38,020 nucleotides of DNA from Synergistaceae bacterium (GCA_031272145.1 JAISUL010000106.1:1-38020); one strand, 5' to 3'; shown: positions 5,212 through 38,020, counted from the stretch's first letter. Translations and numbers: made by a program. Notes: generated by a model from the sequence alone, not told the origin.

Positions 5212-6312
5212 TCAATACTTTTTCATGCGGCTAAGCGGGTTCACGGTCAGGCCGCCCACGCGCACCTCGAAGTGGAAGGTTACGCCGGAACTGTCCGCCA
5301 GCCTGGCGTTGCCGATGACCGTGCCAGCCTTCACCGATTCCTTGCTTTTAACGCTGGCTGTCCCAAGGTTGGCGTACACCGTGGACAAGCCATCGCCGTG
5401 GTCTATTATGACCATTACTCCCATGCCAGGCACGCTGCCGACGAACGTCACCCGGCCCGGCCCTGCTGCGCAAATCGGCGCGCCAGCCGCGGCGCGTATG
5501 TCTATGCCGCTGTTGAACGTGCGCGTCTTCAGCACCGGGTCATCCCTTAGGCCGTAGTAAGACGCCACCGGCCCCTTCAGCGGCCAGTCGAGCTTTTCTG
5601 CCTCGTCCTCGTCCACCGCGTTCCCTGGCGTGGCGAAAACGCCGCTGTTCACATCAAGCCTCATGCCGTCCGTGGTTTGGCCCATACCTATGCTCGGCCC
5701 TGGGTTAACGAACCCCTTGGGGGCGGCTAATCCCTCCGCAGCTGGCGCGGTGGGGGCGGCATTTGCCTGTTCGGCGGCGGCGATCGTTCTGTTGAGGGCG
5801 TTTATCGAGATGCGGTACCGTCTCATCTGCGACGAGAGGGCGTCGTTCGCCACGACCAATCTGTGTTCGCTGACGGCGAGCGCGGCCTTGGCGCGATCCA
5901 GCCTCTCCATCCGCGCCGCCAAGCTGTTCAGCAGAGTCTGGTTGCGCCGCGAGAACCTGCTGAGCATATTTGCGGAGTTCATAGCGTCGTGCGCTGTTTT
6001 AGACGAGAAGAGCACGTTCATCTCCTCCTGAGTGCCGTACTTGTACATGTCGATAAGGCATACGCGAAGGCTGGCCATTAGCCTGTCCCGCTCGACGGTC
6101 AGGGCCTTTATCTCGGCGTTCAGCGAGTCGGCGTTCTTTTTTAGCCTGTCGATGCGCCCTTGCAGGAGGTCGGCCTCTCGCCTGGCGTTGGCTGCGTCGC
6201 GCCTGAGGGCGGCCAGACGGCTGGCAGTATCATCTGCGCTCTCTGCCTGTGCCGCAAAAAGCGCCATAACTAGGAGGAATAAAGCGGCTCTCAGAGCGAG
6301 CTTAACGTTCAT
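5212..6312 (-). CDS. EnvC-like murein hydrolase activator, degenerate LytM (M23) domain
   Basis: A 366-residue exported protein. A signal peptide (LALRAALFLLVMALFAAQAES) leads into a long coiled coil at about residues 28-190, then a linker and a C-terminal LytM/M23 domain from about 240. The zinc ligands of active M23 peptidases are partly missing. The HxxxD position reads NSGID and the usual YAHL reads YANL, while the FHFE histidine remains. This is the pattern of EnvC/NlpD-type activators of cell-wall amidases rather than of an active endopeptidase. The linker holds one copy of the short palindromic repeat (PKGFVNPG). The start overlaps the methyltransferase stop (ATGA). Activator function is inferred from domain order and degenerate ligands. 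Confidence 0.88.
   Translation of the reverse strand: MNVKLALRAALFLLVMALFAAQAESADDTASRLAALRRDAANARREADLLQGRIDRLKKNADSLNAEIKALTVERDRLMASLRVCLIDMYKYGTQEEMNVLFSSKTAHDAMNSANMLSRFSRRNQTLLNSLAARMERLDRAKAALAVSEHRLVVANDALSSQMRRYRISINALNRTIAAAEQANAAPTAPAAEGLAAPKGFVNPGPSIGMGQTTDGMRLDVNSGVFATPGNAVDEDEAEKLDWPLKGPVASYYGLRDDPVLKTRTFNSGIDIRAAAGAPICAAGPGRVTFVGSVPGMGVMVIIDHGDGLSTVYANLGTASVKSKESVKAGTVIGNARLADSSGVTFHFEVRVGGLTVNPLSRMKKY
5698..5726. repeat. GGGGT-N6-ACCCC palindromic mini-repeat, copy in LytM gene linker
   Basis: One unit (GGGTTAACGAACCCC followed by TTGGGG) lies in the low-complexity linker of the LytM gene, where it is read as PKGFVNPG. It matches the repeat family found in the helicase gene and elsewhere in the window. 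Confidence 0.75.
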
Positions 6313-8012
6313 AGCGGCAGCCTCTTCTGCGCGTCCTTGCCCTTGTCGGGTCGCGCAGACTTTACCACGTCCGGCGAGTACGGCATGTGCAGCCGCCCAC
6401 CGTCCAGAATCTCCTGAGTAGTCACTATCAGTATTCTATCCGTCTTTTGCCCTGTCATGGTGTTCTCGTACCTCCCGGCCGCTGCCGCAGCCTGCCGCAT
6501 TGCCGGCGTAGGCTCGGCCAAGGTTATGAAGACCCCGAAGGCAGCACCGCGCGACTCGACCAAGCCAAGCAGGTCCCGCACCATGCCCGGGTTCACCGCG
6601 CCGGACTTCACAGAGAAGAGTATCTCCTTATCCGATCCGTCAGCCTCCCGAATGAACGCTACTCCGTCCAATCCCCCGTCCGCGCCCTTCTTCTCGTTGA
6701 TCATAGCCTTGTTGTCCGAGTAAGTCAGCACTGCCCACTTCTCGAACTCCTTGCGCGTGCGGTCGTCCTTCTTGTGGGCTAGAGCGGCGGCGCTCTCCAA
6801 GTCCCTGGGTATGCCGAAGAGCTCTACCTTATCCATGACGTCCTCGCCATAGGAGTCCTGAAGGCGCTTGATTATAAGGGATATGCTCTGGTAGGTGATG
6901 TCGACGCCTATCCACTTGCGGTTCAGGCGCTCCGCGACGGCGACGGTTGTGCCACAGCCGCAGTAGGCGTCGAGCACCGTGTCGCCCTCGTCGCTGGAGG
7001 CGCGGATGATGCGCTCAAGCAGGGCCTCGGGCTTCTGGGTCGGGTAGCCGAGCTTTTCTTTCGCCTGCGCGGAAAGAGGGTTGATGTCGGTGATTATATC
7101 TTGAGCCGGGCTTCCTTTAGTTTCGTCGTAGTATCTTTTGAAAGTCGGCATTGCACCCTTTGACGGCCAATAGATAAAACCGGCCTTGTCCAGCACGTCG
7201 AGCTTTTCGCACGTGCTCATATCGTCATACCCGTCGGGGCACTCGAACCACCTCGGCAGCGCCTCGGCAGACGGCAATGCCCAGTGCCGCCCTTTCTCTG
7301 TCGGGTCGATGCCTTTCCATGGCAGGCCTGAAGAGCCGCTCCTTCTCCCCTGGCCTGTCAGATCGCCACTTGCATAAAAACCGCGCTCATCCTCGTGGCG
7401 ATAAAATTTTTTGACGTATCCCTTGTTGTAATCTTGCGGGACTCTATTCCACGTGTGCCGGTCTGACTTTGAGTAAAAGAAGATCACGTCGTGTATCGGC
7501 CCCCACCGCTTCGCCCTGTTATGCGAAGATGTACGTTTCCATACTATCTCGTTCAGGAACTCCCCGCCGCCGGGCAGGAACACGCCGTCAAGCATCAGCT
7601 TGAGGTAATGGCTCGCGGTCGGATCACAGTGAAGGTAGAAACTCCCCGTCGGCTTCAGGGCGCGGCGGATCTCCGTCACGCGCCGAGTGAGGCTTACGAT
7701 GTAGGCCAGCATGCTGCCCTTGCCCAGCACAGACTCAAGTCCGCGGATCAGGCGCACGGTTTGAGGCGTGTAGATCGTCGAGCCGGTCTCCTTGATCTCA
7801 ACTAATCCGTCGTTGGCTGCGTCGTTCCACGTCCAGGTGTCCATAAACGCCTGAGCCTGCGCAAAATCCTCCTGGCCGACGTTGTTGTATATCTGGTTGT
7901 AGTTACGCGACGAGTTGAACGGCGGGTCGATGTAGCATAGGTCTATTGACTCGTCCGGGACGTATTTTCTTAGTACCTCAAGGCTGTCGCCGTAGAATAT
8001 CTTGTTCTTCAT
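6309..8012 (-). CDS. DNA methyltransferase fused to Mrr-like restriction nuclease domain
   Basis: A 567-residue amino-methyltransferase of the beta class: motif IV DPPFNS (residues 29-34) precedes motif I VLDAYCGCGT (347-356), as in Type III Mod proteins. The N-terminal KNKIFYGDSLEVL and the DEGDTVLDAYCGCGTTVAVAE region are typical of N6-adenine or N4-cytosine enzymes. From about residue 420 a separate domain follows with GADGGLDG (Asp449) and FSVKSG (Lys469), the D...(x)xK arrangement of Mrr-cat PD-(D/E)XK endonucleases. This suggests that modification and cleavage are combined in one chain. The start at 8012 overlaps the AzlD stop (ATGA). An upstream in-frame start would merely read through azlD in another frame. 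No separate restriction or specificity subunit is nearby. Recognition sequence is unknown. Confidence 0.9.
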   Translation of the reverse strand: MKNKIFYGDSLEVLRKYVPDESIDLCYIDPPFNSSRNYNQIYNNVGQEDFAQAQAFMDTWTWNDAANDGLVEIKETGSTIYTPQTVRLIRGLESVLGKGSMLAYIVSLTRRVTEIRRALKPTGSFYLHCDPTASHYLKLMLDGVFLPGGGEFLNEIVWKRTSSHNRAKRWGPIHDVIFFYSKSDRHTWNRVPQDYNKGYVKKFYRHEDERGFYASGDLTGQGRRSGSSGLPWKGIDPTEKGRHWALPSAEALPRWFECPDGYDDMSTCEKLDVLDKAGFIYWPSKGAMPTFKRYYDETKGSPAQDIITDINPLSAQAKEKLGYPTQKPEALLERIIRASSDEGDTVLDAYCGCGTTVAVAERLNRKWIGVDITYQSISLIIKRLQDSYGEDVMDKVELFGIPRDLESAAALAHKKDDRTRKEFEKWAVLTYSDNKAMINEKKGADGGLDGVAFIREADGSDKEILFSVKSGAVNPGMVRDLLGLVESRGAAFGVFITLAEPTPAMRQAAAAAGRYENTMTGQKTDRILIVTTQEILDGGRLHMPYSPDVVKSARPDKGKDAQKRLPL

Positions 8013-8341
8013 AGCGCCAGCCTCAGCAGCGCTGACGCCGCTATGCCCGTCGCTACCGCTCCGAAAAGGCTTTTGGTCTTCCACGCCACCCAAAACGTTG
8101 GAACCGCCGCTAGGATGTTGAGGTTGAATAGCGAAAAGGCCGGACCCTCCAGCGTGTCGCGAACCAGCAGGAGCTCGGGCGCCAAAAGCGCCGCCATTAT
8201 CGCCGGGGCAACAAGCGACAGCCAGCGCTCAATGCCGCGCGGCATCCTCCGGCCAGGCAGCAGAAGAAGCGGAATAACCCGCGGCAGCAGCGTGGCCAAG
8301 GTCATGCCGATTATAACTACCCACGTTTTACTCACGCTCAC
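8009..8341 (-). CDS. azlD: Branched-chain amino acid transport protein AzlD
   Basis: A 110-residue polytopic membrane protein of the AzlD family, the small partner of AzlC in branched-chain amino acid export. Four hydrophobic helices are visible: VVIIGMTLATLLPRVIPLLLL, LVAPAIMAALLAPELLLV, LNILAAVPTFWVAW and the C-terminal FGAVATGIAASALLRLAL. The chosen start is GTG 8341, which overlaps the azlC stop (GTGA); a second GTG at 8335 is equally possible, because AAAGGGG lies upstream of both. The gene is directly coupled to azlC upstream and to the methyltransferase downstream. Confidence 0.9.
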   Translation of the reverse strand: MSVSKTWVVIIGMTLATLLPRVIPLLLLPGRRMPRGIERWLSLVAPAIMAALLAPELLLVRDTLEGPAFSLFNLNILAAVPTFWVAWKTKSLFGAVATGIAASALLRLAL

Positions 8342-9063: not shown

Positions 9064-9157
9064 ATTCCGTGCCTCCAAATGTTCCAGCCCACGTCGAAGT
9101 GGTTAGTCACCGGAGTGAACTGCAACCCCAAAACAACACGTGTCCCTTCATTATAAG

Positions 9158-9781: not shown

Positions 9782-9782
9782 A

Positions 9783-9803
9783 GGGTTATTCAGCCCCCAA
9801 GCC
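9783..9803. repeat. Mini-repeat copy at the era/recO junction
   Basis: The minus strand reads CTTGGGGGCTGAATAACCC across the era stop codon and just before the recO start. This is a diverged unit close to GGGGCTGATTAACCCC at 27586-27602. The era C-terminus (RLGG) is encoded by it. Confidence 0.5.
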
Positions 9804-12232: not shown

Positions 12233-12336
12233 GGTGTTCGCCTTCTCTTTTACGGGCATTTTTCTCGGCGGCGATCCAGGCCGCCGGGGAGAGCATAGCA
12301 TAAGCGGATGCCGCCGCCGTATCTTTTCCGTAGGGG

Positions 12337-12379: not shown

Positions 12380-12404
12380 CCTGAAGTCTGAAACTCCTTG
12401 AGGC

Positions 12405-13376
12405 CTAATAGGTAACCTTCTGGAGCGTATACGTCACGTTGTACGAAACCGGATAGCCATCAACGACGTCAGTCCCCGTCTGCCTCACTGTAGCCGAAGT
12501 GTATGAGTCTGATAAGAATTTCCATGTAAACGTGGCACCAGGCTCAACAGTCGTCCCTGAATATGTACCGTTGCTGTATGTAACATTGGCCTGTTCACCA
12601 TCTCGGCTGTACAAGACAGCGGAAGTGGACTGACCATTGTAAGTGGCGCTCCAAGTACTCTTGCCGTCGAGATCGAAAAGTCCATGATTTTCGTCCTCGT
12701 CTTGAAGGTCAAGCGTAAAATTGCCACTCGGTGCCGTCAATGAAATAGTATAACTATGACCAGCGACTGTTGCTGTTGCTGTTCCGGAGCCTCCGGTTAT
12801 GCTCCACTGACCATCCAGAGCCGCGAAGTCTGGCGTGCCGCCGCTCTCGGCTTTGAGCGTATACGTCACGCGGTATGAACCCGTATAGTCATTAATGACA
12901 ACAGTCCCTGTCTGCGTTACTTGGGCTGTAGTGTCTGACAAGAATTTCAATGTAAACGTGGCAACGGGCGCAACAGTAGTCGTCCCATAATACGTACCGT
13001 TGCGGTAGGTAACATTGACATGGTCGTCCTCTGGAATAGACATAGAAAGATAGCCAATGTTCTGGCCATTGTCAGTGGCGCTCCAAGTACTCGTGCCGTC
13101 GAGATCGAAAAGTCCATGATTTTCGTCCTCGTCTTGAAGGTCAAGCGTAAAATTGCCACTCGGTGCCGTCAATGAAATAGTATAACCGCCGGCTGTTGCT
13201 GTTCCGGAGCCTCCGGTTATGCTCCACTTGCCATCCAGAGCCGCGAAGTCTGGCGTGCCGCCGCCCCCGCCGCCGCCGCCGCCACCGCAGCCTCCGGCCA
13301 CTACCACGAAGGACATGACCAGCGCCACAACCGCCAGCGCGAACCACCCCTGTTTCCCCTGACCCCGCAACAACAT
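12405..13376 (-). CDS. Putative lipoprotein with two tandem repeat domains
   Basis: A 323-residue exported protein of unknown function. The start at ATG 13376 has AAAGGA upstream and matches the start of the paralogue at 14267-14806. The signal peptide (GWFALAVVALVMSFVVVAGGC) ends in a lipobox-like VAGGC, so lipid attachment is likely. A run of ten glycines follows the cysteine. The mature part consists of two copies of a domain of about 140 residues that begins with PDFAALDG and ends with VTYTL. The composition (Gly, Thr, Ser, alternating strands) suggests a beta-rich, lipocalin-like or surface domain. It has two strong upstream promoters and a downstream terminator, so it is a separate transcription unit. 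No function is assigned. Confidence 0.85.
   Translation of the reverse strand: MLLRGQGKQGWFALAVVALVMSFVVVAGGCGGGGGGGGGGTPDFAALDGKWSITGGSGTATAGGYTISLTAPSGNFTLDLQDEDENHGLFDLDGTSTWSATDNGQNIGYLSMSIPEDDHVNVTYRNGTYYGTTTVAPVATFTLKFLSDTTAQVTQTGTVVINDYTGSYRVTYTLKAESGGTPDFAALDGQWSITGGSGTATATVAGHSYTISLTAPSGNFTLDLQDEDENHGLFDLDGKSTWSATYNGQSTSAVLYSRDGEQANVTYSNGTYSGTTVEPGATFTWKFLSDSYTSATVRQTGTDVVDGYPVSYNVTYTLQKVTY
12410..13270 (-). repeat. Tandem 432-bp internal duplication in the lipoprotein gene
   Basis: The two domains are offset by 432 bp (144 codons). Near-identical stretches include the 90 bp around 12642-12735 and the same bases at 13074-13167. A small indel follows in the VAGHSYTI/GGYTI region. Nucleotide identity far above that of the flanks shows a recent duplication or gene conversion. 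Confidence 0.85.
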
Positions 13377-13470: not shown

Positions 13471-13540
13471 CGCTTATGACGGAGCTAAGCAGCCCCGCCG
13501 AATTGCAACCAAACTTATTGGAATTTAAGGCAGGATTTGG

Positions 13541-13571
13541 CCGTTGGGCCGTTGGGCCGTTGGGCCGTTGG
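13541..13571. repeat. Octamer tandem repeat CCGTTGGG, about four copies
   Basis: CCGTTGGG occurs at 13541, 13549, 13557 and (partial) 13565. The array lies at the expected transcription start of the proximal lipoprotein promoter, so the copies would form the 5' end of that RNA. Confidence 0.9.
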
Positions 13572-13780: not shown

Positions 13781-14263
13781 ATGCCCAGCCGAAAAATCCT
13801 CGCCGCCGCCCGCAATGTCTTCCTCCTAATAGCCCTCGACCAAGCCTCGAAGCTATGGGCGGTGGCCAGCTTATCCCCAGCGTCCCCAGCGTCCCCAGCG
13901 TCCCCAGCGTCCGGGGCTGCTTTCTCCTCGGGGAACTGGTTCTCCATCGCGCTGAGCTTCAACCGCGGCGCGGCCTTCTCCATCATGGACGGGGGGACGG
14001 GCACGCCCGGGCTGCTCCTCGCCGCGGCAGGGCTGCTCGTCCTCGGCGTCGCCTGCGTGGCCTGTCCGGCGCTGCGCAGGCTGCGCGGGATGTCCTTCCT
14101 ATGGGCAGGGGGCGTCTCGAACTTCATCGACCGCGTCGCCCGCGGTTGCGTCGTCGACTGGGTGCAGGTGTGGGGGCTGGGCGTGAACCTCGCCGACCTC
14201 TGGCTTTGCGTCGGCTGCCTCTTGGCCGTGGCCTCCGCCGTCGAGGCGTCCAGACGCCGCTGA
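13781..14263 (+). CDS. lspA: Lipoprotein signal peptidase LspA
   Basis: A 160-residue signal peptidase II, an inner-membrane aspartyl protease that removes the signal peptide of prolipoproteins. The conserved boxes are LDQASKLWA (Asp20), FNRGAAFSI (Asn61), GGVSNFIDR (catalytic Asp117) and VNLADLWL (catalytic Asp139). Four hydrophobic helices are present. The start at ATG 13781 has AAAGGAG eight bases upstream; a GTG at 13748 has no such site. A four-fold Ser-Pro-Ala repeat (residues 32-43) extends the periplasmic loop after the first helix. The gene lies between two putative lipoprotein genes on the other strand and ends three bases before the stop of the second. Confidence 0.95.
   Translation: MPSRKILAAARNVFLLIALDQASKLWAVASLSPASPASPASPASGAAFSSGNWFSIALSFNRGAAFSIMDGGTGTPGLLLAAAGLLVLGVACVACPALRRLRGMSFLWAGGVSNFIDRVARGCVVDWVQVWGLGVNLADLWLCVGCLLAVASAVEASRRR
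13874..13911. repeat. 9-bp tandem repeat inside lspA (SPA repeats)
   Basis: CCCCAGCGT recurs with a 9-bp period at about 13875, 13884, 13893 and 13902 and encodes SPASPASPASPAS. The truncated lspA copy at 14874-14934 has only two such units, so copy number differs between the copies. Confidence 0.9.
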
Positions 14264-14951: not shown

Positions 14952-17900
14952 CTACCCCAGACAGCCGCGGCACCCCCCCTGCCGCATGGAAAACGGGCAG
15001 CGCGGGCAGCGCTTTTCCCCGGCTCGATCCTTCGGAAGCCAGGGGCCGCACGCCGCCTCCTCCGCAGCGCGCCGCACGCGCTCCGCTATGTCCTCCAAAG
15101 ACCGCGCCTCCCACAAACGAACCGCCCCCTCCCTCAGGAAAATCAGGCCCACGCTTACGCTGCCCACGCCGGTCAACATCTCCAGGGCCAGGGCGTAGAA
15201 GTCTAGCTGCGCCGTATAGAGCTCGTCCGGGAGGTTAGTCAACCCCGAGGCGTCGGCTGCTGCGGTTATCTTGTAATCCCTCACGCTCCACTTGTCGCCG
15301 TCTCGCCACGCGACGTCCGTCGTGCCCACCAAGCGAACCCCATGCAGCGACACGCGGAACGGGCTTTCCCTCATAAGGAGGTCATGAGCCCCTGAACCGT
15401 CTGCTGACTCTAGGCGGCGCCTGATGTTTATCCCCTCATCGGTGGCGGCGAATCTGGTTAGCCACGCGGTCAGAGGCTCGCGCCCGTTAGCTTGAGAAAG
15501 CTCCCCCAGCCACTGGCTCAGGCTCTCCTCCCTCAAGTCCCAGTTGGCCAGAACCCAGTGGGCTAGGGAGCCAAGGTCGGCACCACCGATATTAGGGTAC
15601 TCATCTTCCGTCGTGTCGGGGATTTCCCATTTCAGGTCGAGGCCCTGGCGGTACTTGCGGCGCCATGCCAGCGGGCACCACTCGAACAGGGCAAACGACG
15701 TGGCCGAAAACGACGCCAGCGCGCCTGATGTGGCAGCGGGAAGCGGTACGGCTTGGGGTTGACTAACCCCTCGGGGTTGACTAACCCCCGCCGGGGGGAG
15801 GTCATTAGACCCTAAGCGGATAAAATGGGCTGGGTTTGGGGCTTGAGCCTCGGAGGGTACGTGGATTATTGGCACGTCCTTTTTTTCCGGCCCCTCAAGC
15901 CACGACAAGGTTGTGGCCAGCCAGCTCTTGTCTGTGGCCTTTTCCCCAGCGCCCCCAGCGGAGTTTTTCCGTGTTCCGCAAATCACCAGCGCGTCGCGGG
16001 CGCGCGTCGCGGCGACGTAGAACAGGCGCATCGACTCCTCGGCCTCGGAGCGGCTAGTTAAGACCCTATCCCAGTGCAGCGAAAGATGGGCGCTGTCCTC
16101 CTCCGGCGGGTAACAAAGCTCGTCCGGCAGGGCAGACACTGCGACGCCCATCAGAGTTGACGGGGCTGCGGTGCTCTTGGGGTTCCTTATGCCACGCTCT
16201 GCTCTGACTACGGCCACGACGGGAAACTCCAACCCCTTCGCGGCGTGTACCGTCATCACGTGGACGGCGTTTTCGTCGACGGACTCCGGCTCCACGACGT
16301 CCCGACCTGCGCGCAGCGCCATGTCGAGCCACCTCGCGCAGCCCGCCACCCCTCCGGGCATTGCGGCCTCGTACTGCGCTGCGAGGGCGGCGGCGTGCCG
16401 GACGTTCGCCGTGACGCGCTCGCGGTTCCGCGGCGGCACGGACGAAAGCCACAGGGAGTCGGCTTGGGGTCTCATGACCTCTTGGGGTCTCATGACCCCT
16501 TGGGGTCTCATGACCTCCAGCAGGGACGACAGGATCGCGCTAGGGCCCCTCAGGGCTCCTATGCGCCTCAGACGCTCTATGGGGGTGCGCGCCGCGGCTG
16601 CCTGGATGGTGCCGTCCTCGATGCTCCGCATGGCCTCGTCCGGGCTTAAGCCCGAAAACGGCGAGCAGAGCCAGCCGGCCAGGGCCGCCTCGTCCTCCGG
16701 GGAGGCGGCGGCGCGGAGCGTGTTCACCACGTCCGTCACCTCGCCGCGCGAGAAGTAGCTCTTCGCCGCGACGAACACCGCCGGAATGCCCAGGGCGTCA
16801 AACGCCCGCTCCAGCACCTCGTACTCCCCGCGCGTGGGCGTCAAGACCGCAAAGTCCCCCCAGCGAACCGGACGAGCCTTATTATCCCCCTTATCCCAGA
16901 CGGTCCGGCCTTCGCCGACCCATCGCGAGAAGAGGCAGGCCAGTTCGGCGGCCCCGCGCTCCCGCGCCTCGGACACTGGGCCGTCGGCCTCCGAGAGCAG
17001 CACAGTCAGGGGCTCAACTGTGACGGCGTCCCTTATGCCGCCGCTTGGGGTCTCATGACCCCTGTCGTCAGAGGTCATGAGACTCCAAACTGGCCTCAGG
17101 GGTTCGTAGCTGTTGCCCCACACGCTGGCGAAGAGCGAGTTGATGTGCCTCAGGAGCGACGCGCGCGTGCGGAAGCTCACGTCGAGCGGCACGGAGGATG
17201 TCGTGAGACCCCGAGGGGTCATGAGACCCCGAGGGGTCGTAAGACCCAGAGCCGACGCGCGGGCGGTGCAGGCCTCGAACAGGCTGGGGTCAGCGTGCCG
17301 AAAGCCGTATATCGCCTGCTTGACGTCCCCGACGATGAACAGTTTTTTTTCACTCTGACTCTGAGTCTGAAGTATCAGGTTGTACTGCACCCGATCCGTG
17401 TCCTGAAACTCGTCTATGAGGACGTGGCGGAACGCTTGGCCGGCTTGGGGTCTCATGACACCCTTTGCTTGGCCGGCCTTCAAGGCGCGCCGGGCCAGCG
17501 AGATCATGTCCGAGAAGGAGAGCAGGTTCGAGCGCCTCTTGGTCTCGTTCCAAGCCTCCCAAGCCGCGGCGCATAGGCGCAGGAGCGCGGCGCGAACCTG
17601 CCTATCCGCGTCGGAGCTAACCGTTAAGAACTGCGAGAACTCCGCCATCGCCTTGTTAGCCTTGCGCCAGTCACCGGCGGTCATGCCGAGCCGCTCGGTG
17701 ATCATCTTGAACAGCTTGGAGCTGCCGCCGCGGACGTTCGAGCAGACGTCGACGAAGAACTGGCGCTTCACCTCTTCCGTCGGGTCGGGGTTGACTAACC
17801 CCTCGGGGTTGACTAACCCCTTGGGGTCTGCCGGACGGCGCCTCATGACCTCTAACAGCGCCATCTCTTTATCGTGCTTCGCCCCGGCGATCTCGCTCGC

Positions 17901-18629
17901 CAGATCATCAAATATACTGCCCCACCTACTCCACGCGTCGTCCCAGACGCCACGCAGGACGTCCCTCCTGACGATGGCGCGGACGTGGGCGAGCCGCGAG
18001 TCTGACTCTCGCTCGGTCTTGGCGGCCCAGCGGAGGAGCGTGGAGGGCGTCCGGTCGAGGCTCGCGTGCGTCTCTATCACCTCGCGCGCCAGGTTGCTCA
18101 GCGTGCCAGCCCCCCACTTCTCGACGGCGGCGCGGAGGGGATGGTCTACCTGGGGCTGGTACGGCATGCCGGAGAAGTCCAGCGCGTCGACGGCGCGCGT
18201 GAATCCCTCCCAGAACGCGTCCTCGCGTGGTGCCGAGACCACCGAGAAGCCCGGGTCGACGTCGAGCGCCAGCCCGCCGATGCGAATCAGGCGGGACGCG
18301 AACGAGTGTATGGTCGAAATCCACACCTCGTCGAGGCCGTCCCGCACGTCCCGCTGCCGAGGCTCCGGCAGGAGGGGCAGGAAGTCGAGCACCGCCCTCT
18401 CGACCCGCTCGCGCATCTCACGCGCCGCCGCGTCCGTGTAGGTCAGAGTCAGGATGTCGCGCGGCAGGCACTCCGGGTCATTGAAGAGCGTGGCGACGAA
18501 CCTCCGCGTGAGCACCCACGTCTTGCCAGTCCCGGCCCCCGCCCTGACCGCCACTATGTTCCCGTCCTGCGCCGCGGCCCTAGCCTGCTCCGGCGTAAGG
18601 CCGCTTAAAATCTGCTCAATTACGTTCAA
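14952..18629 (-). CDS. addA: AddA/RecB-like UvrD helicase-nuclease
   Basis: A 1225-residue superfamily 1A helicase with a C-terminal nuclease, of the AddA/RecB type used in double-strand break processing. Helicase motifs are GAGTGKT (31-37), TLTYTDAAAREM, IDEFQDTD (near 408) and VMTVHAAKGLEFPVV. The nuclease has GTTDVAW and VRDYK (near 1118) of the PD-(D/E)XK family. Cys in FEWCPLAW (near 984) and the C-terminal CPRCP...CRGC cysteines would fit an Fe-S cluster of the AddB/Cas4 kind, which typical AddA proteins lack. The start is TTG 18629, with GGGGGGA six bases upstream. At least six clusters of palindromic mini-repeats are inserted in frame. No addB is visible in the window. Confidence 0.9.
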   Translation of the reverse strand: MNVIEQILSGLTPEQARAAAQDGNIVAVRAGAGTGKTWVLTRRFVATLFNDPECLPRDILTLTYTDAAAREMRERVERAVLDFLPLLPEPRQRDVRDGLDEVWISTIHSFASRLIRIGGLALDVDPGFSVVSAPREDAFWEGFTRAVDALDFSGMPYQPQVDHPLRAAVEKWGAGTLSNLAREVIETHASLDRTPSTLLRWAAKTERESDSRLAHVRAIVRRDVLRGVWDDAWSRWGSIFDDLASEIAGAKHDKEMALLEVMRRRPADPKGLVNPEGLVNPDPTEEVKRQFFVDVCSNVRGGSSKLFKMITERLGMTAGDWRKANKAMAEFSQFLTVSSDADRQVRAALLRLCAAAWEAWNETKRRSNLLSFSDMISLARRALKAGQAKGVMRPQAGQAFRHVLIDEFQDTDRVQYNLILQTQSQSEKKLFIVGDVKQAIYGFRHADPSLFEACTARASALGLTTPRGLMTPRGLTTSSVPLDVSFRTRASLLRHINSLFASVWGNSYEPLRPVWSLMTSDDRGHETPSGGIRDAVTVEPLTVLLSEADGPVSEARERGAAELACLFSRWVGEGRTVWDKGDNKARPVRWGDFAVLTPTRGEYEVLERAFDALGIPAVFVAAKSYFSRGEVTDVVNTLRAAASPEDEAALAGWLCSPFSGLSPDEAMRSIEDGTIQAAAARTPIERLRRIGALRGPSAILSSLLEVMRPQGVMRPQEVMRPQADSLWLSSVPPRNRERVTANVRHAAALAAQYEAAMPGGVAGCARWLDMALRAGRDVVEPESVDENAVHVMTVHAAKGLEFPVVAVVRAERGIRNPKSTAAPSTLMGVAVSALPDELCYPPEEDSAHLSLHWDRVLTSRSEAEESMRLFYVAATRARDALVICGTRKNSAGGAGEKATDKSWLATTLSWLEGPEKKDVPIIHVPSEAQAPNPAHFIRLGSNDLPPAGVSQPRGVSQPQAVPLPAATSGALASFSATSFALFEWCPLAWRRKYRQGLDLKWEIPDTTEDEYPNIGGADLGSLAHWVLANWDLREESLSQWLGELSQANGREPLTAWLTRFAATDEGINIRRRLESADGSGAHDLLMRESPFRVSLHGVRLVGTTDVAWRDGDKWSVRDYKITAAADASGLTNLPDELYTAQLDFYALALEMLTGVGSVSVGLIFLREGAVRLWEARSLEDIAERVRRAAEEAACGPWLPKDRAGEKRCPRCPFSMRQGGCRGCLG
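15753..15812. repeat. Mini-repeat array in helicase gene, two units plus a diverged third
   Basis: GGGGTTGACTAACCCC occurs twice with an 18-bp period, followed by the related GGAGGTCATTAGACCC. The helicase strand reads it as PAGVSQPRGVSQPQ (about residues 940-959), one frame off the reading used at 17781-17835. Confidence 0.9.
16463..16517. repeat. Mini-repeat array in helicase gene, three units
   Basis: CTTGGGGTCTCATGACC starts at 16463, 16481 and 16499, an exact 18-bp period. The helicase strand reads RPQGVMRPQEVMRPQ (about residues 705-723). Confidence 0.93.
17044..17087. repeat. Mini-repeat copies in opposite orientation in helicase gene
   Basis: CTTGGGGTCTCATGACCCC is followed 10 bp later by the inverted, diverged GAGGTCATGAGACTCC. 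The two could pair as a larger inverted repeat. The region is read as SLMTSDDRGHETPSG. Confidence 0.8.
17201..17247. repeat. Mini-repeat array in helicase gene, inverted relative to 16463
   Basis: GAGGGGTCATGAGACCCC units with an 18-bp period. On the helicase strand this is the reverse complement of the unit at 16463 and is read as LGLTTPRGLMTPRGLTT (about residues 461-477). Confidence 0.9.
17442..17465. repeat. Single mini-repeat copy in helicase gene
   Basis: GCTTGGGGTCTCATGACACCC, read as AKGVMRPQA just N-terminal of the IDEFQD motif (about residues 389-396). Confidence 0.8.
17781..17835. repeat. Mini-repeat array in helicase gene, GLVNP form
   Basis: GGGGTTGACTAACCCC occurs twice with an 18-bp period and is followed by a half unit. 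The helicase strand reads PKGLVNPEGLVNPD (about residues 266-283). Confidence 0.92.
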
Positions 18630-21715: not shown

Positions 21716-23146
21716 TTATATGTGGTGCCTTTTCTTGATCTGGTCATACGCGGTCAGCAGGCGGTTAAAAACCCCCACGTTGCTCCACGTTTCGATGTTA
21801 AGCTCTGTCATCAGGCAGCAGTTGGCCTTTTGCCAGCCCGAGTACCCACGCTCCATGTCCTTGCGCGCGTCGCGGTACGCCCACAGGGGCGTCTCCGCGT
21901 TGCCAGGGTTGCTCACCTGTACGTACGACAGATAGCGCCCCCGCAGCTTCTCGTCCCGCCTTGTAAGGATGGAATTATCCGTCCCTCTCACCTCTACGTT
22001 GCCCTCTTTGCTCCCGTCGTCCGGCACAGGTGCGGAGTATGAGCCGCGGCACGAGAATATCCCTATGCCGTCATACTGCTTTCGGTCTATCCCGACAAAG
22101 CACTTGCAGAACAGCGGTGCAAACGCGCCGTTGATAAACATCAGCTTGCGCGAGGCCATCGCGTTTTTGACGCCGTTGACGAACGGCGCGCAGTTCATCA
22201 GCTTGTCAGCGTACAGGCCGACGACGGAGTTCGGGAAGTAAATGAGGTCGGCGCTCCCCGGAAACATCTGTGTCAGCGGGTTGTAGTCCTCGACGGAGGA
22301 GCATCCGATGGCGCCGAACATCTTGGCGGCGTTGGCTCCCTCCAGCGAGAATAGGCTGTCTCCGACTATGGCCACCCGTATGTCCTTGGGGTCAAACGAC
22401 CCCTTGGGGCGGGAGTCCGGTGCGCTGATGCCAGTCCAGGACTCGTACAGCCGTCCGAAGGCTTGAAACGCGTGCCACTCTATCTGTCGGCGCGAGGCCA
22501 GCTGCAGGGCGGCGCTCTTGACCTGAGTGAGGCGCGCGCCGGCCGAGGCGTTGAAGAGGTCTGGCAGGAACGGCATCGGGCGGTTCAGCTCCGCCGACAT
22601 GTGGCCTAGGTTGATCAGCGACGTGTTTCGGCCTATGTGCTGCTCGAGGAGCTGGTACTCCTTGATGTTTCTCACCGACGAGAAGATTATGCCGAGCACG
22701 TTGTTCTGCATCGTGCCGCTGAAGGCCGAGAGGGTCTCCATCACGGCGCGCGAGGAGAGTATCGACGAGGCCATCGCCGAGAAGACGGCGACGATTCCGC
22801 AGGACAGGGCGCGGCTCATGTCGAGGGGCTCAGGGCGCACCTCGGTGTACTCGTTTCCGTCGGACTGCTTGCACAGGGGCGTCAGAATCACGTTCAGGGC
22901 GCTTGGGCTTGCGGCCTCCTGAAAGAGCGCCCTTATGCCGTCCGTGCCGCCGCACGTGTAGGCGTCGAGGGAGACTATATCCTGCGAGAACAGCAGCCTC
23001 AGCAGCCGCATCTCGGCTTCGTCGCGCGCGCAGGTGAAGATTTTCACGTCGACGCCGACCCTTTGAAGCGCGTAGAGCAGAAGAACACCAGCCGGCACGG
23101 TTCCCTGCGTGCTCTCGTCGGCGATGATTACGCGCGGCAAATCCAA
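21716..23146 (-). CDS. CobB/CbiA-like protein with degenerate active sites
   Basis: A 476-residue protein that looks like a cobyrinic acid a,c-diamide synthase/dethiobiotin-synthetase relative, but with altered motifs. The N-terminal P-loop position reads IADESTQGTVPAG, without the usual GKT lysine. The C-terminal amidotransferase-like domain (from VAIVGDSLFSLEG) has LIYFPNSVVGLYADKLMNC in place of the GGYPE segment and FINGAFAP in place of the AECGG nucleophile motif. It is probably a pseudoenzyme or has a new activity. The linker carries a mini-repeat (RPKGSFDPK). The TTG at 23146 is the preferred start because AAAGGGGGG lies eight bases upstream; a GTG at 23170 is possible. The family call is moderate. 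Confidence 0.5.
   Translation of the reverse strand: MDLPRVIIADESTQGTVPAGVLLLYALQRVGVDVKIFTCARDEAEMRLLRLLFSQDIVSLDAYTCGGTDGIRALFQEAASPSALNVILTPLCKQSDGNEYTEVRPEPLDMSRALSCGIVAVFSAMASSILSSRAVMETLSAFSGTMQNNVLGIIFSSVRNIKEYQLLEQHIGRNTSLINLGHMSAELNRPMPFLPDLFNASAGARLTQVKSAALQLASRRQIEWHAFQAFGRLYESWTGISAPDSRPKGSFDPKDIRVAIVGDSLFSLEGANAAKMFGAIGCSSVEDYNPLTQMFPGSADLIYFPNSVVGLYADKLMNCAPFVNGVKNAMASRKLMFINGAFAPLFCKCFVGIDRKQYDGIGIFSCRGSYSAPVPDDGSKEGNVEVRGTDNSILTRRDEKLRGRYLSYVQVSNPGNAETPLWAYRDARKDMERGYSGWQKANCCLMTELNIETWSNVGVFNRLLTAYDQIKKRHHI
22385..22411. repeat. Mini-repeat copy in the CbiA-like gene linker
   Basis: TTGGGGTCAAACGACCCC followed by TTGGGG, read as PKGSFDPK between the two domains of the CbiA-like protein. 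Confidence 0.8.
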
Positions 23147-23180
23147 AACAGCCACCCCCCTTTGTGTCACACAGTCTATT

Positions 23181-23212
23181 CGGGGTCTAAGCCCCCAAGG
23201 GGTCTAAGACCT
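23181..23212. repeat. Mini-repeat pair upstream of the CbiA-like gene, 17-bp period
   Basis: GGGGTCTAAGCCCCC and GGGGTCTAAGACC start at 23182 and 23199. The period is not a multiple of three, unlike all copies inside genes. The pair would lie in the leader of the CbiA-like mRNA. Confidence 0.85.
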
Positions 23213-23250
23213 CCTGATGAAGTGTTTGCTATAATATCACGGATACTGCG

Positions 23251-26479: not shown

Positions 26480-27901
26480 TCAGTTCCCCCTTAGGCTGCC
26501 CTCGTCCAGGGCGTGGGCGTAGATGTCGAGCAAGAGCGCCCTCAGGTCGTCGCCGTGCATTCCGACTTTGCTGGCGGTCAGGGCGAGGTTTACGTAGAGG
26601 CTGCGGTCGGCTGGGTTCATGCTCACGGCGTCGGCCAGTATTTTGACGTCGGACGGCAGGGAGAGGTCCTTAACGAAGCCCTTCCATATGGGCCCCGTGT
26701 CCCCCGCGAGCGACATGTCGGGGAGCGCGCCGCCGCCGGGCTCGTCGAGGCACGCCCGGAAGGCCTTGAGCGCGTCGCTGAACCTTCTGGCTCGGAACAT
26801 GGACACGCCTATGCTGAACAGCCCGCCCCTGTCGACCTTCTCGTAAATCACTGCCGCGCGGCGCGGAGTATTAGGGGTATTAGGAACCGCGGTATTAGGA
26901 ACAGCAGTATTAGGAACCGAGGCCCTTGGAGCAGCTGGCCTTGTGGCAACTGCCGCCGTGGGGACGGCTGCCCTCCTGCGTGCGGCGGGTCTGAGGGCGG
27001 CGGGTCTGGCGGGGCTGGGGGGCCTGAGGGAAACTGTCCCCTTGGGGGGCTCGGCAGCGGGACGGCCTGCCTCCGTGGCGGGTGCGGCCGCGGGGGTGGA
27101 CACTTCGCCGCCAGGCACTGCCGGTGGCTCGGCCGCCTTTGTGACCTCAGGCTTTGAGGGCTCGGCCTTGGTGCCCTGCTCCTCCTTGGGAGCGGCTGCC
27201 TCCTTGGGAGCGGCTGCTTCTTTGGGAGCGGCTGCTTCCTTGGGAGCGGTTGTCTCCTTGGGGGCAACTGCTGCCTCCTGGGGTGGCTCTAGCGCGGGTT
27301 TTCCCATGATGGACACCGAGCCGATGACTATCGCGCAGAAGATCGCCGCCGCTGCCAGCATGGTGAACAGCCGGCGCCGTTTTTTGCTGGAGGCTTTGGC
27401 GCCCCTGGTCTGCGGCTCTGGGTGGTCGCTCCCAAGCTTGTGCGAGCGGAACGGCTGATACTCGGCGTTCGCTAGGCGCGACACGTTGGCGTCCATCTCG
27501 ATGCCCTGCTCCGGGCCTGAGCTCCGGCTCTCGGCTCTCTTCAGCGCGTCCGTACGGGGCGGGACGAGTCCCCCAAACTGGTTAAGGGGCTGATTAACCC
27601 CGGCCACGTCTTCCTCCTCTTGAGCAATGGACTGACCGATGGGCTGGCTAGCCACCGCCTCGACGGGTTCCCATGTCTGCGCGCCGGGCAAGCTCGGCTC
27701 GGCTGCCATGCTCGGCTCGACTGCCTCCGTCGGCGTGGGCTCCTCCGTGGCAGGGACGACTGCCCGCGCCCTCTGAGCCGTCACGACCACCGGAAGCCGC
27801 AGAACCACCGCCGCGTCCAACAGAAGACCAGTCCGGTCGAACGGGACGTCGCTGAACGACGGCCTTCCGCCCCGAAGCCAATCCTCCAAATCCTTAAGCA
27901 C
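26480..27901 (-). CDS. Proline/alanine-rich single-pass membrane protein, TPR-like C-terminus
   Basis: A 473-residue protein of unknown function. An N-terminal cytosolic part is rich in Glu/Pro, then KKRRR leads into one membrane helix (about residues 178-200). A long Pro/Ala/Lys linker follows, containing KEAAAP repeats and PNTAV repeats. The C-terminal 120 residues (from RGGLFSIGVSMFRARRFSDALKAF) look like TPR helices. The topology resembles TonB-like or periplasm-spanning adaptor proteins, but no family is recognised. The GTG at 27901 is preferred because GAGGGG lies eight bases upstream, inside a mini-repeat; a GTG at 27910 is the alternative. Its promoter appears to be at 27989-28017. 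Confidence 0.7.
   Translation of the reverse strand: MLKDLEDWLRGGRPSFSDVPFDRTGLLLDAAVVLRLPVVVTAQRARAVVPATEEPTPTEAVEPSMAAEPSLPGAQTWEPVEAVASQPIGQSIAQEEEDVAGVNQPLNQFGGLVPPRTDALKRAESRSSGPEQGIEMDANVSRLANAEYQPFRSHKLGSDHPEPQTRGAKASSKKRRRLFTMLAAAAIFCAIVIGSVSIMGKPALEPPQEAAVAPKETTAPKEAAAPKEAAAPKEAAAPKEEQGTKAEPSKPEVTKAAEPPAVPGGEVSTPAAAPATEAGRPAAEPPKGTVSLRPPSPARPAALRPAARRRAAVPTAAVATRPAAPRASVPNTAVPNTAVPNTPNTPRRAAVIYEKVDRGGLFSIGVSMFRARRFSDALKAFRACLDEPGGGALPDMSLAGDTGPIWKGFVKDLSLPSDVKILADAVSMNPADRSLYVNLALTASKVGMHGDDLRALLLDIYAHALDEGSLRGN
26875..26921. repeat. 15-bp tandem repeat (PNTAV) in membrane-protein gene
   Basis: TATTAGGAACCGCGG and close variants occur three times and encode PNTAV; a shortened unit precedes them. 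Confidence 0.85.
27180..27275. repeat. 18-bp tandem repeat (KEAAAP) in membrane-protein gene
   Basis: CCTTGGGAGCGGCTGCCT and variants occur about five times with an 18-bp period and encode KEAAAP. The CTTGGG core and the 18-bp period recall the palindromic mini-repeats, but the unit is not a palindrome. Confidence 0.85.
27568..27602. repeat. Mini-repeat copy in membrane-protein gene
   Basis: AAGGGGCTGATTAACCCC preceded by a diverged inverted half (CCCCCAAACTGGTTAAGGGG). It is read as VNQPLNQFGG before the membrane helix. Confidence 0.65.
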
Positions 27902-27907
27902 CCATAC

Positions 27908-27978
27908 CACCCCTCGCGAGGGGTCAGCGCAGGCCCCAAGGGGTCAGCGTAGGCCCCAAGGGGTCAGTTTGACCCCAA
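27908..27978. repeat. Intergenic mini-repeat array, 20-bp period
   Basis: CCCCTCGCGAGGGG is followed by three GGGGTCAG-type units with a 20-bp period (CCCCAAGGGGTCAGCGTAGG) and ends TTTGACCCC. It fills most of the predicted leader of the membrane-protein gene, including its ribosome binding site. Confidence 0.92.
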
Positions 27979-34730: not shown

Positions 34731-34746
34731 GGAGGTGTCCAGGCAG

Positions 34747-35211: not shown

Positions 35212-36038
35212 GCACAGCGGTTCACCCAACGGCAGTGGTCTCGCGGAGCGCGGAGCTCGGTGATGGCGTCGCGGTGGGGCCGTACTGCGTAGTCGAGGCC
35301 GGGGCCGAGATAGGGGCAGGGACGGTGCTGAGCGCCTTCGTGAAGGTCTGCGGGCAGACGGCGATAGGCAAAAACTGCCGCATCCACGAGAACTCCGTGC
35401 TCGGCGGCGACCCTCAAGACCACAACTACAGGGGCGAGCCGTCTATGGCGCGGGTGGGCGACGGGTGCCTCATACGCGAAAACGTGACGGTCAACCGCGC
35501 GACCGGCGAGGGCTGCGAGACCGTCGTCGGAAACAGCTGCTTTATAATGGAAGGAGTCCATATAGCCCACAACGTCAGGATAGGCGAGGGCGTAACCATC
35601 GCGAACAAGGTCGGCCTGTCCGGCTTCGTTACGGTGGACGACCACACCGTCTTCGGGGGCATGGCTGGGGTTCACCAGTTCGTCCGCATAGGGTCATACT
35701 GCATGATAGGCGGGATGTACCGCGTGACGAAGGACGTTCCGCACTACACCTTGGCGTCGGGAGACCCGCTGAGGCTCGTGGGGCTGAACTCGGTCGGCCT
35801 GCGCCGCGCCGGGTTTACTCCGTCCGTTAGAAGGAAGATACTCTCGTTCTACCGCGAGCTTTACGGCAGCGGCCTCTTCAGCCGCGCCCTCGAAAACGCC
35901 GTCAAAAAGAGGGACTCGTACTGCCCCGAGGTTCAGAGGATTCTGGACTTCTACGGCCTCTCGAAACGGGGTGTGACGTTCTGGAGCAGAGCCAAGGAAG
36001 CCAGGGAAGCCAAGGAAAAGGACAGCACGGAGGATTGA
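35208..36038 (+). CDS. lpxA: UDP-N-acetylglucosamine O-acyltransferase
   Basis: A 276-residue LpxA, the first lipid A enzyme. The N-terminal left-handed beta-helix has the typical hexapeptides (HPTAVVSRSAELGDGV). The catalytic His is His121 in GVHIAHNVRIG, and GMAGVHQFVRIG follows. The helical C-terminus carries GLKRRG-like LNSVGLRRAGF. ATGA overlap with fabZ. A short Lys/Glu/Ala-rich tail (EAREAKEKDS) lies at the end. Confidence 0.97.
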   Translation: MSTAVHPTAVVSRSAELGDGVAVGPYCVVEAGAEIGAGTVLSAFVKVCGQTAIGKNCRIHENSVLGGDPQDHNYRGEPSMARVGDGCLIRENVTVNRATGEGCETVVGNSCFIMEGVHIAHNVRIGEGVTIANKVGLSGFVTVDDHTVFGGMAGVHQFVRIGSYCMIGGMYRVTKDVPHYTLASGDPLRLVGLNSVGLRRAGFTPSVRRKILSFYRELYGSGLFSRALENAVKKRDSYCPEVQRILDFYGLSKRGVTFWSRAKEAREAKEKDSTED

Positions 36039-37411
36039 CGAGTTCTGATTTAGCCCCGCGCCAGGCCGCGTCGCCCGACCGCATGGGCAGGGAGCCTATA
36101 CCTAAGCTCCTCGCGGCCTTCGCACTTCCCGCGACCGTCGGTATGATGGTGAACGCGCTTTACAACGTAGTGGACAGGATCTTCGTGGGGCGCTTCGTGG
36201 GGCCTGACGGGCTTGCCGCGACGAGCCTGTGCTTTCCGTTCATCATGCTCATCTTCAGCCTGTGCCTTCTCTTCGGCGTCGGTGCGTCGACGCTCATCTC
36301 GACGGCGCTGGGCGAGAAGGACGCGGAACGGGCTGAGCGAATCCTAGGCGGCATGACCCTGTCCGTTTTCGTTTTGTTTTGCGCCGTGGCCATTGCCAGC
36401 GCAGTCTTCATTGACCCGCTGCTTCGGGTAAGCGGAGCGGAGGGGCGGCTTATGCCCCCTGCCCGCGAGTACCTGGGCATAAGCATACTCGGCATGCCCC
36501 TGTCGTGTCTGGCCTACACCCTCAGCTCCTGCATCAGGGCGGAGGGGCGGCCATCGTTCGCAATGGCCACTCAGGTGCTGGGCGCAGCGTCCAACATCGC
36601 GCTCGACGCCCTGTTCATCCCGGTGCTGGGCATGGGCGTCGTCGGCGCAGCGTGGGGCACGGTCATATCCCAGGCCGTATCGGCGCTATGGGTCTTCTCG
36701 TTTTACGCGAGGCGTGCCGGCGTCCTGCGCTTTCGCTTCGCGCTACCTCGTCCGTCCGACCTGTTCAGGATCACGGCCATCGGCCTTTCGCCGTTTCTCA
36801 ACAACCTGGTCTACTCGTTTTTTTCCGTGATGTTAAACCGCGCGCTGTTCTTCCACGGAGGCCCCTTGGCCGTGTCCGCTCTGGGCGCGTTCATGGGCTG
36901 GGACTCGCTCCTGTTCCTGCCGGTGGTAGGCCTGGGCGAGGCGGCTCAGACGCTCTTCGCGTACAACAACGGGGCGCGCTTGATGGCCCGCGTGCTCGAC
37001 ATCCTGAAGCTGTCCTTGATAATCGCCTCTCTGTACTTCGCGGCGAGCGTACTCAGCGTTTACTTCTGGGCCGAGGGCATGCTGATGCTGTTCACGTCCG
37101 ACCCGGAGCTTCTCGAGGTGGCGGCGCACGGGATGCGGATATCCTACGCCGGCGGGATTTTCGTCGGCACGCTGGTCATAATAATCAGCTTCTTCCAGGG
37201 CCTAGGCCGCGCCGGCACGTGCCTTTTTATGAACATCACGCGCCAGTTCCTGTTCCTAATCCCCTCCGTGCTGCTCCTGCCGAAGTACTTCGGCCTGCAG
37301 GGAGTGTGGCTCTGCTTCCCCGCAATGGACATAGGAGGCGCCGCCGTAGGTCTGGTGCTGCTGGTGAGGGAGTACGGCAAGATGGGCCTGAGCGAGTTCG
37401 AGAGGATTTGA
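36035..37411 (+). CDS. MATE family efflux transporter (second)
   Basis: A 458-residue MATE transporter with about 12 helices. Hallmarks are LLAAFALPATVGMMVNALYNVVDRIFVG at the N-terminus and the second-half SPFLNNLVYSFFSVMLN. The start is uncertain: TTG 36035 directly abuts GGAGGA, and ATG 36083 has no clear ribosome binding site. The stop lies in the -35 box of the ridA promoter. Although read after the lpx genes, the protein is more likely a general efflux or lipid/peptide exporter than a lipid A enzyme; no substrate is visible. Confidence 0.9.
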   Translation: MTSSDLAPRQAASPDRMGREPIPKLLAAFALPATVGMMVNALYNVVDRIFVGRFVGPDGLAATSLCFPFIMLIFSLCLLFGVGASTLISTALGEKDAERAERILGGMTLSVFVLFCAVAIASAVFIDPLLRVSGAEGRLMPPAREYLGISILGMPLSCLAYTLSSCIRAEGRPSFAMATQVLGAASNIALDALFIPVLGMGVVGAAWGTVISQAVSALWVFSFYARRAGVLRFRFALPRPSDLFRITAIGLSPFLNNLVYSFFSVMLNRALFFHGGPLAVSALGAFMGWDSLLFLPVVGLGEAAQTLFAYNNGARLMARVLDILKLSLIIASLYFAASVLSVYFWAEGMLMLFTSDPELLEVAAHGMRISYAGGIFVGTLVIIISFFQGLGRAGTCLFMNITRQFLFLIPSVLLLPKYFGLQGVWLCFPAMDIGGAAVGLVLLVREYGKMGLSEFERI

Positions 37412-37436
37412 CACGCTCTCAGCTTGGAAGTAGAAT
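37408..37436 (+). promoter_or_regulatory. Strong promoter of ridA
   Basis: TTGACA (37408-37413), a 17-bp spacer and TAGAAT (37431-37436), close to the consensus. The TGA of the MATE stop codon is part of TTGACA. The predicted leader is about 30 nt. Confidence 0.8.
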
Positions 37437-37471
37437 AAAGAAAGTAAGATACACTTTCGGAGGTGTCCTCA

Positions 37472-37846
37472 ATGGAAAAGCGCGAGATTCGGACGGCGAA
37501 GTCGCCTTCGCCCATCGGCCCCTATTCTCAGGGGCTGGTGTTGGACGGCAGGATTTACGTTTCTGGTCAGGGGCCGACCGACCCCGCAACGGGCAAGCCC
37601 CCCGCCGGCATAGCGGCCCAGACGCGGCAGACCCTGAACAACGTCAAGAACATCGTCGAGCAGGGCGGCGGCACTATGGACAACGTCGTCAAGACCACGG
37701 TTCATCTGGCGAACCTGGACGACTTCGCTGAGTTCAACAAGGTCTACACGGAGTTCTTCCGCCCGCCCTACCCAGTCCGCACGACGGTCGGCAGCGCGCT
37801 CCTCGGCGGCATTCTGGTGGAGATAGACGTCGTGGCGGAGCTCTAG
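37472..37846 (+). CDS. ridA: RidA family reactive intermediate deaminase
   Basis: A 124-residue RidA/YjgF protein, which removes reactive enamine/imine intermediates such as 2-aminoacrylate from PLP enzymes. The N-terminus has SPSPIGPYSQGL; the arginine that binds the carboxylate is in PVRTTVG; the C-terminus has LVEIDVVAEL with the key Glu. The start at ATG 37472 has GGAGG eight bases upstream. It has its own promoter and is followed by a further gene after 3 bp. Confidence 0.96.
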   Translation: MEKREIRTAKSPSPIGPYSQGLVLDGRIYVSGQGPTDPATGKPPAGIAAQTRQTLNNVKNIVEQGGGTMDNVVKTTVHLANLDDFAEFNKVYTEFFRPPYPVRTTVGSALLGGILVEIDVVAEL

Positions 37847-37849
37847 GCG

Positions 37850-38020
37850 ATGGGGAATGCCTGCACCATACTGAGCATCCCCAGGGGGTTCACCGGAGCG
37901 GCGGGCGTCAGGCAGCGCAACGCCGTCGGAAGCTGGCTTGCCCTTGCCCCCGAGGGGTTAGTCAAGCCGGAGGTCATTCTTTTCGGCGGCGACCCAGGAG
38001 TAGCTGAGGCCGCCGCCGCG
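37850..38020 (+). CDS. Unknown protein, C-terminus outside window
   Basis: Fifty-seven codons are seen from ATG 37850 (GGAG nine bases upstream). The N-terminus (SIPRGFTGAAGVRQRNAVGSW) followed by VILFGGDPGVAEAA resembles the start of a small nucleotide-diphospho-sugar transferase-like family, but the segment is too short for a firm call. A mini-repeat unit (GAGGGGTTAGTCAAGCC) is inserted between the two, read as PEGLVKPE. Confidence 0.55.
   Translation, partial: MGNACTILSIPRGFTGAAGVRQRNAVGSWLALAPEGLVKPEVILFGGDPGVAEAAAA
37947..37973. repeat. Mini-repeat copy in the last, partial gene
   Basis: CCCGAGGGGTTAGTCAAGCC, in the same coding-strand orientation and frame as the helicase array at 17781-17835, although that gene is on the other strand. 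Confidence 0.7.

Follow-up and report, generated by a model that had tools for sequence, protein, structure and literature searches.

Introduction

Repetitive extragenic palindromic (REP) sequences of the GTAG and CGTC families are short, clustered stem-loop repeats present in many copies and sometimes located within genes, where they are known to strike recBCD, UvrD-type helicases and tRNA synthetases (PMC3733652). Rickettsia palindromic elements (RPEs) and their counterparts in Wolbachia and M. jannaschii are described, in the passages of PMC2996958 and PMC3733652 that cite them, as palindromic DNA lying in frame in ordinary genes, mostly in unstructured segments, with no known transposase. 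Short palindromic repeats of Volvox organelles form hairpins with 3–5 base loops, have spread genome-wide and look selfish (PMC2670323), and palindromic amphipathic repeat coding elements (PARCELs) are 75-bp palindromic tandem units that code for a conserved amphipathic protein domain (PMC2996958). RPEs and CGTC REPs raise the question of whether short palindromes are able to spread through genes in the absence of a known transposase. Here, we analyzed a 38,020-nt stretch of DNA (the window), which is contig C46 of the draft genome of an uncultured Synergistaceae bacterium (2.05 Mb in 107 contigs), and the 15- and 16-bp palindromic units that recur in it and elsewhere in this genome. Very probably, these units form a family of ultra-short, palindromic insertion modules that is specific to one lineage. 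We file them as elements that work like intragenic REPs and RPEs, yet are shorter, are arranged head-to-tail and have no known mover. The source genome makes the question of spread testable, as it offers a small unit, two lengths that differ only in frame-keeping, and filled and empty sites together. It also provides a natural experiment in peptide insertion, with many six-codon multiples in enzymes such as AddA, RsmH and YmdB that appear intact.

Palindromic units of two lengths recur in one genome

The draft genome has a completeness of 98% and a G+C content of 62–63%. A search with TIGR04564, made as a check on Synergistota identity, returned nothing above cut-off, and the phylum assignment is tentative. 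Unit analyses were performed first on ~1.06 Mb and later on 1.33 Mb of it, and array counts rest on the latter. Background was estimated with shuffles for the window, with the pattern read backwards for the genome, and with CCCC-N-GGGG for the spacing scan. Labels beginning with L or G denote loci and genomes, respectively, within this analysis.

A family of recurrent GGGGT-N6-ACCCC palindromes had been noticed in the window in an earlier note. The exact motif occurs there 8 times, compared with an expectation of 0.03 (none of 100 shuffles reached 8), and 16 times with one mismatch allowed, against 1.4 expected by shuffling. The claim was borne out genome-wide, as the whole genome holds 45 exact copies, far above expectation, versus 1 for the backwards-read control. 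Among 60 relatives, each held 0–10 copies, generally matching its own control.

The 16-bp motif is real but too narrow a description of the unit. When GGGG-Nn-CCCC was scanned with an unconstrained center, spacings of n = 7 (86 vs 15 in the control) and n = 8 (96 vs 16) stood out, and other spacings were close to controls. The unit is GGGG plus 7 or 8 bases plus CCCC, that is, a 15-mer or 16-mer palindrome in which a 2-bp stem, a 3–4 base loop and a second 2-bp stem separate the two ends; the 15-mers and the wider frame with its covarying stems had been overlooked. For the covariation test, the sample was restricted to units carrying the most frequent loop (GNCT) and was thus blind to the inner stem. 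Both inner pairs were complementary in 37 of these 48 units versus 12.7 after shuffling (5,000 shuffles, maximum 23), and TT/AA, AC/GT, AT/AT and TC/GA stems were all present. The GGGG/CCCC ends are thus constant, and the inner stem covaries. As single-stranded DNA, the units fold to a 6-bp hairpin (-5.6 to -6.5 kcal/mol). Other inner-stem types within the GGGG/CCCC frame (GGGGATGACTATCCCC, GGGGATAGCCATCCCC and GGGGAAGGCGTTCCCC; L091, L069, L102 and others) form short arrays of their own.

Within arrays, the units are arranged head-to-tail and separated by GA, TT, AA or TC. The spacer, and usually the flanking dinucleotide too, is TY in the orientation with the GNCT loop and RA in the opposite one; owing to the 2-bp spacer, the period is 18 bp in 16-mer arrays and 17 bp in 15-mer arrays. 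Direct repeats of 2 bp flank 18 of 76 arrays, compared with 7 expected. The 1.33 Mb contain 148 units in 93 arrays, and an identical 15-mer is common to 18 arrays and an identical 16-mer to 9, spread over many contigs.

The tandem-pair pattern GGGGN8CCCCNNGGGGN8CCCC has 27 matches in the source genome. Of the 187 further genomes of the phylum that were scanned, four matched, each once, and none of these matches is similarly palindromic; a scan of GTDB r220 returned three unrelated loci (Streptomyces, Methylococcaceae and Chloroflexi). An expansion of a CCCCA-N6-TGGGG palindrome in the relatives G049 and G057 was set aside, as its ~61-bp spacing is that of a CRISPR (clustered regularly interspaced short palindromic repeats) array. 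In G008, the closest sampled relative, intergenic 15-mer hairpins are paired as GGGGCCTGAGGCCCC-TT-GGGGTCTGAGACCCC within longer repeats, and its loci L132–L137 are dispersed intergenic repeats with the context CTGATTAATGGGGTTCTTA. From these intergenic 15-mers one might guess that the 15-mer form is older and that the coding 16-mer form may be derived.

Units are insertions relative to homologues and paralogues

The closest genomes compared, none of them from its genus, belong to the same family as the source bacterium, with an AddA identity to the source of ~50%. Alignment of AddA with its orthologues placed the unit peptides in gaps of exactly 6 residues (SGLTNL) and 18 residues (the array at 16466–16517); the remaining AddA unit sites are also insertions, of less certain length. 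YmdB (TIGR00282 family), with GGQTSPRGQTSP, carries a 12-residue (36-bp) insertion relative to the solved B. subtilis YmdB. The gaps of 6, 18 and 12 residues are multiples of one 18-bp unit. An 18-residue insertion was found by alignment in RsmH, and alignment gaps were less clean in the further hosts CysS, GlgB, EtfA and a nucleotidyltransferase (HIGH_NTase1). AddA, YmdB and RsmH are thus conserved protein-coding genes with in-frame palindromic insertions, as known for RPEs. Distant homologues did not carry the same units at the same sites, the AddA and YmdB homologues being without the unit peptides. That units lie in loops, as also proposed before, was seen in a few proteins with homologues.

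Three pairs of filled and empty sites, of the kind known for mobile elements, were found within the genome. L103, near position 1609, exceeds its paralogue in L089 by 17 bp, the length of a 15-mer with 2 bp added; the paralogue, which is empty, is intact and reads KWHQAFVDALHTGLRRYRDVLELL, whereas the filled copy is frameshifted and meets a stop soon after. Around L182:213, which is ~91% identical to L184, the difference is exactly 17 bp, namely GGGGTCTTAGACCCC plus GA, and the filled copy, which contains further indels, is out of frame. L012:1365 and its paralogue at ~2481 differ around GGGGTCGACTGACCCC by exactly 18 bp, which keep the frame; this insertion lies in an apparent signal peptide, with another 36-bp insertion close by. 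The net gain was the palindrome plus 2 bp in every clean case, an insertion size missed in the earlier note, whose insertion reading is otherwise supported. The flanking dinucleotides of the three pairs are alike, though not identical. Other candidate paralogue pairs (L077, L082 and L014) gave no clean alignment across the unit.

Unit length and reading frame differ between genes and intergenic regions

Arrays were assigned to genes using codon-model predictions made here (91% coding). Over the 1.33 Mb, arrays consisting only of 16-mers numbered 30 in genes and 12 outside, versus 5 and 32 for those consisting only of 15-mers (Fisher p = 3e-7, odds ratio 16). As 20 of the stretches had been chosen because they contained the motif, we ran the test again on the unselected 1.03 Mb, where 16-mer arrays were distributed 10:4 (genes:outside) and 15-mer arrays 4:27 (p = 2e-4, odds ratio 17). 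The proposed rule that coding arrays have an 18-bp period and intergenic ones 17 or 20 bp becomes, genome-wide, one of 16-mers with 18 bp in genes and mostly 15-mers with 17 bp outside them.

Among GNCT-type units in genes, 17 lie in the gene's orientation and 25 in the opposite one, in several frames, nearly all of which are kept stop-free by the commonest sequence. The orientations, the frames, the split between 16-mers and 15-mers and a frame-breaking 17-bp insertion in one copy of a paralogous gene family support the proposal that the element is one of DNA whose insertions are filtered for frame, rather than a peptide motif. Of 45 arrays outside genes, 27 have a predicted start no more than 100 bp downstream, in many cases no more than 60 bp, and some of those near starts may affect translation or transcription.

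Possible origins of the units

Insertion at new places in and outside genes, tandem growth, covarying stems and filtering by frame were all observed. We propose that spread takes place via a single-stranded hairpin form of the unit, which would be either handled by a trans-acting enzyme or copied when replication switches template, and both may act; the template-switching route gains support because near arrays share unit sequences more. Single insertions would then expand via tandem duplication, and purifying selection would purge those that break the frame, add stops or strike structured protein parts. As a 16-mer plus 2 bp amounts to 18 bp, its insertion is frame-neutral. That a dedicated enzyme transposes the 15–16-nt hairpin with a gain of 2 bp per insertion, recognizing the GGGG/CCCC ends and the hairpin shape and not the inner sequence, is a tentative idea to which we give somewhat less than even weight; if true, the hairpin would rank with the smallest known transposing units, with a 16-bp form that is frame-neutral by length.

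Several observations weigh against insertion modules. Of the three filled/empty pairs, two compare paralogues that are moderately identical and one lies at contig ends of the draft assembly, and none shows a clean 2-bp duplication. No match to the Y1 transposase family (PF01797; REP-associated tyrosine transposase, RAYT, type) was obtained at E <= 0.001 in the 98%-complete genome, which extends to the whole genome what had been noted for the window; a match is present in 23 of the 61 genomes of the comparison set. Rpn-type PF12784 nucleases were rejected as the mover, with two in the source genome versus 0–14 in relatives without units, many of which have more. Finally, an exact unit is shared by 7 of 28 near array pairs versus 48 of 1,100 distant ones, a difference as compatible with local duplication as with insertion.

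This excess among near arrays, together with the resemblance of units within an array, would also be expected if palindromes were a kind of hairpin minisatellite, arising and multiplying in place where G-rich sequence provokes slippage and template switching. The genome is rich in other tandem repeats and (GA)n tracts, and template-switch correction of imperfect palindromes could yield covarying stems. We nevertheless regard such local mutation as rather unlikely, since it does not account for single 15-mer and 16-mer sequences recurring across many contigs or for empty paralogues that have no precursor unit at the site, and since relatives with a similar or higher tandem-repeat density (two of five cases) are without the unit family. 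Selection for a functional DNA or RNA element, such as a regulator site, terminator or leader hairpin, is improbable: the clustering of non-coding arrays upstream of starts, the maintained stems and the similar form of the intergenic hairpins in the closest sampled relative speak for it, but catalytic genes contain units in both orientations and in several frames, dead gene copies carry them too, and the family is restricted to one species. Some leader arrays may have been co-opted. Selection for a peptide motif is scarcely credible and is contradicted by the peptides, which differ by frame and orientation, and non-coding units exist; the G-x-x-x-P pattern that unit peptides often show is a consequence of GGG and CCC codons. 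That the units are an assembly or sequencing artefact of the metagenome-type draft, as its 107 contigs and the pair at contig ends might suggest, is highly implausible, because an artefact would neither sort 16-mers into genes and 15-mers outside nor avoid stop-containing frames.

Comparison with REPs, RPEs and other palindromic repeats

As short hairpin-forming repeats with many dispersed copies in one genome, the units are REPs in the broad sense. Their hosts AddA and CysS recall the recBCD, UvrD-type helicase and tRNA synthetase targets of intragenic REPs, and CGTC REPs are likewise without a dedicated transposase. However, the units measure 15–16 bp versus 20–40 bp for REPs, and they form head-to-tail 17/18-bp arrays instead of the mostly head-to-head dimers of REPs. 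The GTAG tag of the GTAG REP/RAYT system was absent from the flanks of 76 arrays, which are mostly TY/RA with C upstream, and the source genome differs from that system in having no Y1 transposase. The tag and 8–9 bp stem of CGTC REPs were not found either, the units having a 6-bp stem and TY/RA flanks.

With RPEs, the units share in-frame placement of palindromic DNA in ordinary genes and the lack of a known transposase. RPE families are longer, with RPE-1 reaching over 100 bp. The units (15–16 bp, with net insertions of 17, 18 and 36 bp) would on these lengths be shorter than RPEs; moreover, a single unit equals six codons, is repeated in tandem and is read in several frames and both orientations. 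Volvox repeats average 50 bp and are intergenic or intronic (PMC2670323), whereas the present units enter conserved enzymes. PARCELs are similar in being tandem palindromic DNA that codes for protein repeats, but membership was rejected in view of the 17/18-bp period and of peptides that differ by frame, none of them conserved. Miniature inverted-repeat transposable elements, with terminal inverted repeats of 15–30 bp in elements of 70–300 bp, were rejected as well, as the whole unit here is only 15–16 bp.

Units and other repeats of the window

The units of the window and their host genes are listed in Table 1. Positions given in the earlier note were correct within a few bases, with those at 15231, 17071 and 15798 omitted (the last two degenerate); its units at 9783 and 37947 are weak, with two mismatches. 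Coding arrays of the window have the claimed 18-bp period, and the two leader arrays have periods of 17 bp (23182) and 20 bp (27920). The several unlike hexapeptides described for AddA were confirmed as GLVNPE, GVSQPR, GVMRPQ, GLMTPR and SGLTNL.

Table 1. Palindromic units and host genes in the window (TRF, Tandem Repeats Finder).
Position	Strand	Feature	Support
5212-6312	-	M23 peptidase gene, host of the unit at 5701-5716	
5701-5716		Single unit TGGGTTAACGAACCCC, 1 mismatch, in M23 peptidase gene; reads KGFVNP	
14952-18629	-	AddA-type helicase-nuclease gene (UvrD helicase + PDDEXK_1), units at no fewer than (at least) 7 sites	Pfam; orthologue alignment
15231-15246		Single unit GAGGTTAGTCAACCCC in AddA; insertion SGLTNL right after nuclease DYK motif	Exact 6-residue gap in most orthologues
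15755-15788		Two-unit array GGGGTTGACTAACCCC x2 in AddA, 18-bp period; reads GVSQPRGVSQPQ	
15798-15813		Degenerate unit GAGGTCATTAGACCCT, 2 mismatches, in AddA	
16466-16517		Three-unit array GGGGTCTCATGACCYC in AddA, 18-bp period; reads VMRPQGVMRPQEVMRPQ	18-residue gap in orthologues; TRF
17047-17062		Unit GGGGTCTCATGACCCC in AddA; reads GHETP	
17071-17086		Unit GAGGTCATGAGACTCC in AddA, orientation opposite to unit at 17047; reads SLMTS	
17197-17248		Three-unit array, TCATGA type, in AddA, 18-bp period; reads GLTTPRGLMTPRGLTTS	Insertion vs orthologues
17447-17462		Single unit GGGGTCTCATGACACC in AddA; reads GVMRPQ	Orthologue alignment
17787-17820		Two-unit array GGGGTTGACTAACCCC x2 in AddA, 18-bp period; reads KGLVNPEGLVNP	Orthologue alignment; TRF
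22388-22403		Single unit GGGGTCAAACGACCCC in gene 21716-23170 (-); reads KGSFDPK	
23182-23214		Non-coding intergenic pair, GGGGTCTAAG type, 17-bp period; adjoins start at 23170 (-) from upstream	
27586-27601		Single unit GGGGCTGATTAACCCC in gene 26480-27910 (-); reads GVNQPL	
27920-27976		Non-coding three-unit array, 20-bp period (two 18-bp hairpins, one 17-bp), directly upstream of start 27910 (-)	TRF
37570-37585		Possible unit GGGGCCGACCGACCCC, 1 mismatch, in predicted gene	
37954-37969		Weak unit GGGGTTAGTCAAGCCG, 2 mismatches, close to chance level	

The unit at 17447 sits between copies of an 11-bp direct repeat, GCTTGGCCGGC (17434–17444 and 17467–17477), which is longer than the usual 2-bp spacer. 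Other tandem repeats of the window are a 432-bp near-duplication (12423–13296), GGCCGTTG x4 (13539–13571), TCCCCAGCG x4 (13874–13912) and an 18-bp repeat that encodes a PKEAAA-type linker (27181–27276).

Other observations in the genome

A 26-member paralogous group (e.g., L014:8541-9446) was found in ~65% of the genome; it is represented by a recombination-promoting nuclease of the Rpn type (TIGR01784, PF12784), and only two members match PF12784 in the genome search. L167 (G000:C9:1-447), which lies at the end of a contig, is a fragment of a reverse transcriptase (RVT_1, E = 1e-14) and is not linked to units. Long (GA)n/(CT)n tracts were observed at L087:453-865, L061:3272-3599, L057:9883-10096 and L003:5387-6130, several of them at or near predicted gene starts; one reads REREREREREI in a predicted protein, and two of the loci share ~110 bp at 89–90% identity. 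This tract pattern would allow phase variation. L106:6132-7811 belongs to a 21-member group of ankyrin-repeat proteins, which is unusual in a 2-Mb bacterial genome.

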